Positions 44,637 to 48,137 of a stretch of DNA of 64,000 nucleotides are shown one piece after another. Below the pieces are notes generated by a model. It had not been told where the DNA came from. It saw nothing but the letters and a program-made list of their open reading frames with translations, and did not search any database. Position numbers and translations under genes: made by a program. Each line of letters begins with the position of its first letter. Position 1 is the first letter of the stretch. Source of the stretch: Variovorax sp. (GTDB lineage: Bacteria; Pseudomonadota; Gammaproteobacteria; Burkholderiales; Burkholderiaceae_C); assembly GCA_004210915.1 (NCBI GenBank), contig SEGS01000008.1:1-64000 (forward strand), given 5' to 3'.

Positions 44637-46349
44637 ATGCCTCACGAATTCAAAGTCCCCCCGATTTCTGCCGACCGCCTGCCTGCGCTGCTGTGCGCCA
44701 TGCCCAAGGCCGAGCTGCACATGCACATCGAAGGCTCGCTCGAGCCCGAACTGATCTTCGCGCTGGCGCAGCGCAATGGCGTCGTGCTGCCCTATGCCAG
44801 CGTGGAAGACCTGCGCCGCGCCTACGCCTTCACCAACCTGCAGAGCTTTCTGGACATCTATTACGCGGGCGCCAGCGTGTTGCTGAAAGAGCAGGATTTC
44901 TACGACATGGCGTGGGCCTACCTGGAGCGCGCGGCGGCCGACAACGTGGTGCACACCGAAATGTTTTTCGACCCGCAGACGCACACGGCCCGCGGGGTGG
45001 ACATCCAGGTGGTGATCGATGGCCTCCACCGCGCGTGCGTCGATGCGGAGCCGAAGCTGGGCGTCAGCGCCGCGTTGATCCTGTGCTTCCTGCGGCATCT
45101 GAGCGAGGAGGACGCTTTCGATACGCTCGAACAGGCACTGCCTCACCGCGACAAGTTCATCGGTGTCGGGCTCGATTCGAGCGAAGTCGGCCACCCGCCG
45201 GAGAAGTTCGCGCGCGTCTTCGCGCGCTGCCGCGACCTCGGCCTGCGGCTGGTGGCGCACGCGGGTGAGGAAGGCCCGCCCGAATACATCTGGAGCGCAC
45301 TCGACGTGCTCAAGGTCGAGCGCATCGATCATGGCGTGCAGAGCACCAGGGACCCGGCCCTGATGCAGCGCCTGGCGGCCGACCGCATCCCGCTGACCGT
45401 GTGCCCGTTGTCGAACCTCAAGCTCTGCGTGTTCCCCGATCTCGCGCAGCACAACCTGGGCGCACTGCTCGATGCAGGGCTGGTGGCCACGGTGAACTCC
45501 GACGACCCGGCCTACTTCGGCGGCTACATGAACGAGAACTTCCTGCAGACCTTCGCCGCGACCGGCCTGACGGCGCAGCAGGCCTGGCAGCTGGCGGCCA
45601 ACAGCTTCGAGGGCAGCTTCATCGATGACGCGCGGAAGGCGCGGTACATCGAAGGGACGGTCATGTCGACATTGAAACTCGGGCTTCACAGGCTTCCGGC
45701 AGCGGAGGTCGTATTGATTCAAACCTTGCTGCGGTTGTATGGGGGCGAGGCGTCTGGCGGGCGCTGGACGTTGGCAGATGCGCCGCCCTGGGATGCTGTG
45801 CTGGTCGACGACACCACACACGAAACGCCGCGTGCCACGTGGGGCACGCAAGCCGCCGCGGTGCTGCGCATCACGCGCATCGGCGAAGCCAGCAAGCCGG
45901 ATTCCATCGAGCGGCCGATCCGGCCCGACCGGCTGCTGCGATGGCTCGATGCGCACAGGCCGGCCGCCAAGCCTGCCGACCGCGCGCCGTCGAAAGAAGA
46001 CACCCCGGCCATCGACACGGCCGATACCTTCGCCAACATCCGCTATCGCCTGAAGCGCTGGCCGCCATCGTCGGTGCTGCGCAATGACGCCCGCCGCGTT
46101 CGCATGGCCACGCTGCTGTCCAAGCGGGCCTTCAGCGCGACCGAACTCGCAGCCGTGAGCCAGCAACCGCCTGCCGAATGTCATGCGCTGCTTCGGCTGT
46201 TGCGCGGAACCGGCCTTGTGGAAGAAGAACCCATCGTGCCGCCTTCGCAGCCCGCATTTCTCGCGGCCGAGGCGGTGCCGCCGCACAAACCGGCGCAGCG
46301 CTTTGCGCGCGGCTTGATCGGCGGCCTGCGTCGCCGGCTGGGACTTTGA
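44637..46349 (+). CDS. Adenine/adenosine deaminase fused to an unrelated C-terminal domain
   Basis: A 570-residue protein. Residues 1-342 are an Add-family deaminase with zinc ligands His28/His30 (LHMHIEG), His208 and catalytic Glu211 (HAGEEG), and Asp289/Asp290 (NSDDPAYF). The [11 protein letters not shown] and [13 protein letters not shown] segments resemble the adenine-deaminase branch (Pseudomonas PA0148). The usual C-terminus is cut at ARYIEGTV. From Met343 (ATG 45663, preceded by a relic GAAGGGA ribosome-binding site) runs a 228-residue region. Its first half looks like a degenerate receiver-type fold; the second has a winged-helix-like [21 protein letters not shown] small GTPase gene follows 7 bp later. 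Confidence 0.88.
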
Positions 46350-46356
46350 CATCGCC

Positions 46357-46899
46357 ATGAAGGAATACAAGATCCTTTTCACCGGATCGATGGGCGCTGG
46401 AAAGACCACCGCCATCGGCAGCATCAGCGAAGTGCCTCCGATCGTGACGGATGTGCGCAACACCGACCTGTCCGCCGCCAAGGCACGAACCACGGTCGGC
46501 CTCGACTACGGCCAGCTCACGCTGGACAGCGGCGACCGGGTCCGCCTGTTCGGCACGCCGGGCCAGACGCGCTTCGATTTCCTCTGGCAGATCCTGGTCA
46601 AGAACGCGCTCGGCATGATCATCCTGACCGACAACAGCCGACCCGATCCGCTGGCCGACCTCCACACCTACCTCGATGGTTTTGCCGAACCCTTGAAAGG
46701 CATTCCCTGTGCGATCGGCGTCGGGCGCCTGGAAACCCATTCGCGACCCAGCCTGGACGATTACGCCGAGGCGCTCGCCCGGCGCGGCCAGATTTTCCCC
46801 GTGCTCGGCGTCGACGTGCGCCGGCGCGACGATGTGATCCTGCTGATCGACACGCTCCTGGCGCAGATCGAAGCAGAAATGTTCGAGATCCCGGAATGA
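46357..46899 (+). CDS. Small Ras-like GTPase (MglA/conservon CvnD-type), atypical G4
   Basis: A 180-residue single-domain GTPase-like protein. G1 is GSMGAGKTT (Lys16), switch-I threonines are at 45-46, and G3 is FGTPGQTRF (66-73), where the usual Asp of DxxG is Gly, as in the bacterial COG2229 group. The base-specificity motif NKxD is not found; the expected place (119-126) reads AIGVGRLE. It is followed by three roadblock/LC7 genes, the first overlapping by 4 bp, as in MglAB or Streptomyces conservon modules. Likely a cytoplasmic switch; nucleotide specificity is uncertain. Confidence 0.88.
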   Translation: MKEYKILFTGSMGAGKTTAIGSISEVPPIVTDVRNTDLSAAKARTTVGLDYGQLTLDSGDRVRLFGTPGQTRFDFLWQILVKNALGMIILTDNSRPDPLADLHTYLDGFAEPLKGIPCAIGVGRLETHSRPSLDDYAEALARRGQIFPVLGVDVRRRDDVILLIDTLLAQIEAEMFEIPE

Positions 46900-47321
46900 A
46901 CGACGAAACAGTACTCGAAACCCACCCTGCGGCGGCATGGCGCCTGCCGGAAAGCACCCGCGCGCTGGCGCAGCGCGAATCGCAGTCCCTGCTCGACGAA
47001 GTGGACGGCGTGAAGGCCGTGGTGGTGGCCAGCATCGACGGGTTCGATGTGGCCTCTGCGATCCGTGGCGACACCGATCCTGCACGCGTGGCCGCGATGG
47101 CGAGTTCGATCTCGGCCATCAGCGCGGTGGTCTCGCAAGAGGTGGCGCTTGGCCGGAACCGCAGCGTCACCATCGACACCGAAGGCGGTTTCGCCGTGGT
47201 CTACACCGTGCATCGGCCCGACGGCGAATTGATCGTCAACGTGATCGCCGGCACCGGTGCGTTGCTGGGGCAGGTGGCGTACCGTGTGGCGCAAATGGCG
47301 CGCACGCTGGCTGCCTCATGA
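46896..47321 (+). CDS. Roadblock/LC7-domain protein 1
   Basis: A 141-residue roadblock/LC7 protein (about residues 25-135: LLDEVDGVKAVVVASIDGFDVASAI, MASSISAISAVVSQEVALG). Roadblock dimers bind small GTPases as GAPs or scaffolds (MglB, CvnB). Its ATG overlaps the GTPase stop (ATGA) and its stop overlaps the next start, so the three are translationally linked. Confidence 0.9.
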   Translation: MNDETVLETHPAAAWRLPESTRALAQRESQSLLDEVDGVKAVVVASIDGFDVASAIRGDTDPARVAAMASSISAISAVVSQEVALGRNRSVTIDTEGGFAVVYTVHRPDGELIVNVIAGTGALLGQVAYRVAQMARTLAAS

Positions 47322-47683
47322 ACAGCGGGCCGTTGCGCGAGGCGCTCGAACGGGTCACGCTGGTACCGGGGATCAGCGGCTGTGCGCTGGTCGAGATCGA
47401 AGCCGGCATGGTCTGGCACACCGCCGGCGACATGCCCGACGTGCAGAACATCGCCGAGGCAGCGAGCGACTACTGGCGCCTCTACCTGCGCCTGGAGCCC
47501 CAGTTCGGCCGCCTCGGTGGCCTGCGCGGCTCGCTGATGTGGCATGCAGAGGGGCAACTGGTGCTCCTGCCGTGCGGTCAAGGCGTGCTGTTGGTGTGCC
47601 TGGCCATGCAGGATGGCCCGGTCGACTGGCCGGCCTGCTTCGATCAGGCGAGCGGCCTGGCCGACCTCGTCGACAACCTCTGA
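47318..47683 (+). CDS. Roadblock/LC7-like protein 2 (divergent)
   Basis: A 121-residue protein starting MNSGPLREALERVTLVPGISGCALVEIEAGMVWH, with roadblock-like secondary structure. The sequence is diverged from its neighbours, and it has LVLLPCGQGVLLVCL in the final strands. It starts in a 4-bp overlap with roadblock 1. Assignment rests on pattern and context rather than strong motifs. Confidence 0.75.
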   Translation: MNSGPLREALERVTLVPGISGCALVEIEAGMVWHTAGDMPDVQNIAEAASDYWRLYLRLEPQFGRLGGLRGSLMWHAEGQLVLLPCGQGVLLVCLAMQDGPVDWPACFDQASGLADLVDNL

Positions 47684-47700
47684 ATCCAATGGTGTTTCCC

Positions 47701-47729
47701 GGCGGCGCGTGTTTGCGTGACGCGTCGCC
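47701..47729 (+). other. Hairpin between roadblock genes 2 and 3
   Basis: GGCGGCGCGT (47701-47710) pairs with ACGCGTCGCC (47720-47729), a 10-bp stem with one G-U pair and a 9-nt loop, followed by TTTGTTCC. It could partly terminate or stabilise the upstream transcript, giving separate expression of the third roadblock gene. Confidence 0.5.
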
Positions 47730-47777
47730 TTTGTTCCTGTAACCACGCACATCCAGAAAATAAAGCGGAGAGCCCTC

Positions 47778-48137
47778 ATGGCAACCATCAAACAAACCCT
47801 CGACGAGCTGCTGGCAGTGGACGGCGCCATGTGCGCCAGCGTCGTCGACTCCACCAGCGGCATGATCCTGGGCTCGGCCGGCACCGGCGTCGACATGGAA
47901 ATCGCGGCGGCCGGCAACACCGAGGTCGTACGGGCCAAGATGAAAACCATGCGCGCGCTGGGCCTCAACGATGTGATCGAAGACATCCTCATCACGCTCG
48001 GGAAGCACTACCACATCATCCGTCCCTCGTCGCGCAAGGAAGGCGTGTTCATCTACTTCGTGCTCGACAAGGGGCGCTCCAACCTGGCGATGGCGCGCCG
48101 CAAGACGCAGGACGTGGACAAGGAACTGAACTTCTGA
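47778..48137 (+). CDS. Roadblock/LC7-domain protein 3
   Basis: A 119-residue roadblock-type protein: MATIKQTLDELLAVDGAMCASVVDSTSGMILGSAGTG, then VVRAKMKTMRALGLNDVIEDILITLGKHYHIIRP and FIYFVLDKGRSNLAMARRK. Its length and strand pattern match the fold. It is separated from roadblock 2 by 94 bp with a hairpin and has its own CGGAG ribosome-binding site, so its level may differ from the rest of the cassette. A terminator follows. Confidence 0.85.
   Translation: MATIKQTLDELLAVDGAMCASVVDSTSGMILGSAGTGVDMEIAAAGNTEVVRAKMKTMRALGLNDVIEDILITLGKHYHIIRPSSRKEGVFIYFVLDKGRSNLAMARRKTQDVDKELNF

Follow-up and report, generated by a model that had tools for sequence, protein, structure and literature searches.

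A Group 3-like MglA switch operon behind a deaminase gene in Variovorax, with a deaminase-regulator fusion that looks like a by-product of insertion

Introduction

Group 3 MglA systems of the beta- and gamma-Proteobacteria were described in 2014 (Wuichet and Sogaard-Andersen, PMC4316618), and the sections of that paper at hand already characterise their 'protein of unknown function' as receiver-like plus winged helix, with a DNA-binding output suggested for it. According to the same sections, Groups 2-5 have GTPGQ in G3, a Thr at the place of the intrinsic Arg and, in MglB, an Asp-Gly pair, and in Groups 2 and 3 the G4 motif departs from NKxD and G5 carries an Arg. These systems are known mainly via sequence surveys; one that has been worked with, as far as the available part of that study goes, is the mgl locus of Snodgrassella, which has three mglB genes, is assigned to Group 3 and is linked to type IV pilus motility (PMC11112851). 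Here we describe a cassette of this type in Variovorax sp., within a 64,000-nucleotide stretch of contig SEGS01000008.1 (hereafter the window), where the putative regulator of the switch is read in frame behind an adenine/adenosine deaminase (add). What sets it apart is this fusion of the regulator with a deaminase; the type of switch is itself already known.

Results

The fusion is a single open frame on the plus strand (44637-46349) of 570 codons, encoding 570 amino acids. Its first part belongs to the Add family by both family score and metal and catalytic motifs: the adenosine deaminase model NF006850 matches residues 18-339 above its cut-off of 419 bits (Table 1), and HMH (28), HAGEE (208), DHG (231) and SDDP (288) are all present. 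An earlier note on this DNA, made from the sequence alone, had called residues 1-342 an Add-family deaminase with a full metal site; the family and the motifs hold, and the boundary moves, as deaminase homology stops at residue 339 and about 10 native C-terminal residues are gone. The frame then reads through Met343 (45663) and extends for 228 residues without a stop, as that note had said. The nearest solved structure to the deaminase half, 3ou8 (326 aa), aligns with residues 19-331 (E 2e-132), and its chain terminates seven residues past this stretch, so the lost add residues fall past the chain end. The Protein Data Bank (PDB) lists 3ou8, 3pan, 3pao and 3pbm, from Pseudomonas, as adenosine deaminase; we take them to be Pa0148, the Pseudomonas adenine deaminase.

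DNA homology to add runs out near 45652. All 53 related add loci (48 genomes; 49 loci from 44 congeners and 4 from other genera, excluding two second add-like genes of ~50% identity, L089 and L090) stop 8-17 residues beyond the equivalent of window residue 339, so relatives do carry the stop after the deaminase for which the earlier note had proposed to look. The window has no stop at the native add end, and the missing end is encoded in no frame at the junction; as none of the three frames holds the final codons of add, a simple frameshift does not explain the junction. In a genus-wide search with the whole 570-residue protein, add was present in 98 of 101 genomes and the fusion in one of these 98, the window genome being counted; every match other than the window's own ends by residue 356. 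Likewise, none of the 23 same-genus add loci compared has a match to the regulator or the GTPase within 1.5 kb of add.

A congener, G002, offers what we read as the empty site. Its order is ABC-permease-permease-BMP-Rieske-add-BMP2-acyltransferase-glycosyltransferase (BMP identified by tblastn, Rieske by Pfam, the rest by eye), with add immediately before the second BMP gene and the outer order as in the window. The window departs from it in three places: a SulP gene stands for Rieske, add and BMP2 are separated by the cassette, and BMP2 is followed by a ligase-like gene. Compared with this arrangement, the fusion looks like a by-product of an insertion that placed an MglA switch operon between add and BMP2.

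Table 1. Features of the fusion, the cassette and its right flank in the window
Feature	Coordinates	Strand	Basis or description
add, adenine/adenosine deaminase, native part (residues 1-339)	44637..45653	+	NF006850 572 bits, PF00962 302 bits; 53/53 related add loci extend 8-17 residues more, then stop
Junction codons G340-T341-V342, from where add homology ends to the former start of the regulator	45654..45662	+	congener add genes; starts of the regulator in relatives
Putative Group 3 MglA-system regulator (tail, 228 aa)	45663..46349	+	predicted: degenerate receiver domain over tail residues 1-103, a linker that varies, a winged helix at ~119-190 and a basic helix at the C-terminus (..RRRLGL)
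MglA-family small GTPase, Group 3 motifs (GTPGQ; TT in G2; no NKxD; DVR)	46357..46899	+	Pfam, motif alignment
MglB-like roadblock protein 1, Asp-Gly pair	46896..47321	+	PF03259 1.8e-7; D48-G49 invariant in 15 rows
Roadblock protein 2	47318..47683	+	PF03259 2.8e-5
Third small protein (119 aa), conserved, perhaps a roadblock protein that has diverged	47778..48137	+	84% mean column identity in 18 rows
Second BMP-type substrate-binding protein, flanking the insertion on the right	48215..49324	+	PF02608; immediately after add in G002

The cassette fits a Group 3 MglA system by its motifs, predicted folds and gene content. GTPGQ in G3 and T45-T46 in G2, where Thr stands for Arg, are invariant in 24 of 24 GTPase rows; the window protein reads GVGRLE at G4, with no NKxD, and DVR at G5, for which one of the 24 rows (L055) has NVT. 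The adjacent protein shows a receiver-like domain, a variable linker and a winged helix when AlphaFold models are aligned with VIA-align, and roadblock protein 1 provides the coupled MglB with its Asp-Gly pair. The statement in the earlier note that no described system has this composition was therefore wrong, such systems having been in print since 2014 (PMC4316618, in the sections at hand). Group 1, typified by Myxococcus MglA, is rejected: instead of TVPGQ in G3 and the intrinsic Arg in G2, the protein has GTPGQ and Thr. Two PDB searches with the GTPase returned eukaryotic Ras-like proteins, with no MglA in the seven rows of one or in the best 60 of 216 rows of the other.

Two of the three small genes reach the Pfam roadblock cut-off of 23 bits (31.2 and 24.2 bits). 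The GTPase gene overlaps the next gene by 4 bp (46896), which in turn overlaps the following one by 4 bp (47318); 7 bp separate the regulator from the GTPase and 94 bp the second small gene from the third. Thus, of the Ras-like GTPase with three roadblock/LC7 genes and 4-bp overlaps claimed before, the GTPase, two roadblock genes and two of the four junctions are retained, and the third small gene (47778-48137), which has no Pfam match, and the remaining junctions are not. This third protein is perhaps a diverged roadblock protein: its profile matches roadblock 2 weakly and roadblock 1 not at all (roadblock 2 and roadblock 1 do not match each other by profile either), three of 18 relatives have a weak LAMTOR5 match (best E 0.045), and a PDB search gave nothing under E 0.14. 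It is the most conserved member of the cassette across several cassette types (alignment A7; Table 1), the GTPase having 69% mean column identity in a different set, of 24 rows. L154 likewise has matches to the third protein, and its fetched stretch has no GTPase match.

In the relatives examined the regulator is encoded on its own, and its start codon lies at Met343 or at most three codons after it. These starts were picked by eye among candidates, and at a few loci, L004 and L096 among them, the frame is open further up. We therefore take Met343 as the probable old start, on the strength of the start codons of relatives. The motif GAAGGGA, 5 nt ahead of Met343, had been offered as a sign that the tail was once its own gene; that history agrees with the separate protein of relatives, and the motif itself was dropped as evidence, the Shine-Dalgarno (SD) signal being at chance level: when 84 internal ATGs in neighbouring genes were taken as controls, 16 showed equal or better pairing with the anti-SD. 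The earlier description of the tail as degenerate receiver-like plus winged-helix-like is supported by the predicted structure. In a check for a CvnC homologue, its Pfam matches were weak, mostly to HTH-type models with one unrelated model besides, and PHROGs held no match for the tail or the third small protein.

Relatives of the regulator are found in 34 of 101 genus genomes and, by profile, in 31 of 369 class-level genomes, the window genome counted in both. A search with alignment A2 retrieved 23 named loci from Variovorax, Ottowia, Polaromonas and metagenome-assembled genomes (MAGs) of Comamonadaceae or Pseudomonadota, and the tail sequence alone retrieved none; the genome collections overlap, some of the 23 being the same genomes as in the genus set, and genes at these loci were called with a simple script. 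The GTPase lies immediately downstream of the tail in 19 of the 23 and beside it in 17 of the 29 class-level loci fetched besides the window; several of the other 12 match over a short HTH stretch alone, with E near 1e-4, and may be unrelated regulators. These counts agree with the earlier note, which had paired the tail with the GTPase switch and would have given up the pairing had its homologues never occurred beside GTPase/roadblock genes. No add match was found in the fetched flanks of any of the 23. Carriage by plasmids was rejected: the tail protein was not found in the plasmid collection, and the DNA search matched the add part alone, in two records.

Upstream of the tail, the 23 named loci differ in arrangement. 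In seven (L115, L116, L120, L124, L128, L129 and L130) the type IV pilus minor-pilin operon pilV-pilW-pilX-pilY1 directly precedes it, PilY1 and PilW having been verified by Pfam in L042, which is the same locus as L116 (V. paradoxus ISL-81); L115 and L129 are from V. boronicumulans. In eight, dnaE lies upstream in divergent orientation (one checked by Pfam), and in the remaining eight the nearest upstream gene is LysR-like in six (one checked by Pfam) and another gene in two. The pilVWXY1 arrangement hints at a role in pilus control. In L121, a MAG relative, a dnaE-linked cassette converges (10218-13733) on a DUF1521 gene, a Rieske oxygenase gene and a BMP gene, the last two being of the kinds seen in the G002 purine locus; the add of that genome is on contig C7, and L121 itself has no add match.

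The window genome holds two more cassettes of the same kind, L051 and L054, and its matches to the tail or the GTPase are confined to contigs C108, C131 and C24. Directly upstream of the L051 cassette (C131, 7841-8950, minus) and on the same strand, we observed a gene for a PAS-HisKA_3-HATPase histidine kinase, which recalls the conservons. The two PilY1 genes of the genome are on contigs without tail or GTPase (C115 and C42). Its dnaE is likewise on contigs other than those with tail or GTPase, which does not demonstrate that the cassette moved away from dnaE. Roadblock 2, which the window cassette retains, was otherwise detected in the eight dnaE-linked loci of the 23; the Variovorax loci of that set all lacked a match to it.

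Next to the cassette, the SulP gene that replaces the Rieske oxygenase of the G002 purine locus spans 43031-44491, and the ligase-like gene after BMP2, named by eye and lacking there in G002, spans 49367-51277. At 48140-48215, just before BMP2, we saw by eye an inverted repeat, rich in GC, with a T run behind it, and a similar arrangement precedes BMP2 in G002. It may be a terminator or a leader; it was not among the results of the terminator scan, and Rfam gave no element at gathering score.

Discussion

We consider it probable, with some confidence, that a complete Group 3 MglA switch operon, comprising the receiver/winged-helix regulator, the MglA GTPase, the third small protein and two roadblock proteins, has entered a locus for purine uptake and breakdown, where it came to lie between add and the second BMP gene. 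As comparison with relatives shows, the left break fell within the last codons of add, removing the stop and ~10 residues and keeping the regulator's own ATG in frame. Since only 10-13 nt remain between the end of add homology and this old ATG, an in-frame, stop-free join requires no selection; by our own estimate, about one in four random insertions would produce one. As no stop is left after add, every full translation of add must give the fusion, so that an Add-regulator protein is the inferred product; a separate regulator may also arise from the retained ATG. The fusion most likely puts the switch under the expression of add and is otherwise incidental. By homology, the roadblock proteins most likely govern the GDP/GTP cycle of the GTPase as partners resembling GTPase-activating proteins, and the regulator would serve as a partner resembling a guanine nucleotide exchange factor (GEF) or as a DNA-binding output, roles that have been put forward for conservons and Group 3 systems; in the part of that report available, the CvnC homologue MfpC is given as a likely GEF (PMC13343842). 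To judge by the gene order in part of the relatives, the switch originally served, probably, to control type IV pili or some other function of the cell surface.

Several observations weigh against this insertion of a Group 3 operon or against parts of it. G002 is the sole congener in which BMP2 adjoins add in the fetched 1.5 kb, among 23 add loci. Four of the 23 named tail loci have no GTPase (L124, L125, L126 and L130), L124 and L130 being two of the seven pilus-linked ones, and eight of the 23 adjoin dnaE, so the pilus link is not general. When sequence profiles were compared, none of four receivers matched the tail, and receiver homology by that route was discarded; Foldseek alone gave no match to the tail at E <= 0.001. 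For these reasons we base the receiver call on predicted structure with VIA-align. Finally, the GTPase tree places the window cassette beside an Ottowia clade (95/95), and a horizontal gain from the Ottowia side is possible. For the concatenated tree, the approximately unbiased (AU) test rejects a group made of the window and 10 Variovorax loci (p-AU 2.8e-8), and the same grouping with L131 added is acceptable (p-AU 0.41). The state of the assembly counts here too and is taken up below.

Other explanations have to be weighed. The fused product might be inactive or degraded and the working regulator initiated at Met343, which would be compatible with the insertion just described and which we regard as possible, if rather doubtful: Met343 is the old start position and an SD-like GAAGGGA is present, whereas this match is no better than chance, 16 of the 84 controls being as good, and ribosomes translating add pass over the site. 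It is also tempting to speculate that the fusion is functional, with deaminase activity, purine binding or oligomerisation of Add tuning the regulator so that the switch reports purine status. The frame is open and stop-free, the conserved residues are kept in both parts, and deaminase-sensor proteins do exist, the CARF-ADA profile matching the deaminase part. We nevertheless find this improbable, as the fusion occurs in a single add-bearing genome of the genus, an in-frame join is expected from chance as often as estimated above, and add is missing from the flanks of the 23 tail loci. The same single occurrence and missing add, together with the look of an insertion by-product, speak against the earlier proposal of a fusion that connects purine catabolism with the switch; a functional link of this type is possible and has no comparative support. 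Slightly less probable still is the bolder version, in which the Group 3 regulator has become the C-terminal domain of an adenine deaminase whose oligomeric or substrate state directly sets the regulator and hence the GTPase; if true, this would be a purine-responsive version of the switch found in the type IV pilus operon of some relatives. Least likely is an error of sequencing or assembly that deleted a stop or short stretch between two neighbouring genes: the assembly is in 139 contigs (4.16 Mb), yet the native add end is missing in all three frames, for which a single-base error is insufficient, and both flanks keep the G002 order, which is hardly expected of a chimeric contig.

The fusion can be seen as a natural experiment in which the regulator is necessarily made with, and attached to, a metabolic enzyme. 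Moreover, our comparison provides leads for Group 3 in general: the regulator and its GTPase usually occur together, the pilVWXY1 operon of some Variovorax has the switch operon at its end, and the third small protein is the most conserved piece.

Among known systems, the deaminase half resembles the Pseudomonas deaminase of 3ou8, 3pan, 3pao and 3pbm; 3ou8, however, is a stand-alone chain and the window deaminase is fused. CARF-ADA defence proteins (PADLOC PDLC01908) also share the deaminase domain, which is C-terminal in them and N-terminal in the window protein. The match covers profile positions 246-590 of 605, from protein residue 9 onward; with the deaminase part alone matched and the CARF part unmatched, anti-phage defence of this type was rejected. 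The conservons of Streptomyces and Mycobacterium, which belong to Group 2 (PMC13343842, in the part available), are alike in combining a GTPase, a roadblock protein and a further small partner. They carry a histidine kinase in the operon, whereas the window cassette has none: no CvnA-type kinase was matched among the cassette and the scanned flanking genes (add, SulP and the two BMP genes). In Snodgrassella, unlike in the window cassette, the third mglB lies apart from the mgl locus as an orphan gene, and the available part of its description mentions no deaminase fusion (PMC11112851); nor did the literature search yield a paper on a deaminase-MglA fusion among the matches listed. The closest likeness is to the Group 3 systems themselves, as presented in the sections of PMC4316618 at hand, both in gene content (a receiver-like/winged-helix protein, an MglA homologue and MglB-like proteins) and in motifs (GTPGQ, Thr for Arg in G2, no NKxD, Arg in G5). 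Those systems have one or two coupled MglB against the three small proteins of the window, which differs from them further in its regulator, fused behind a deaminase, and in its neighbourhood of purine genes.

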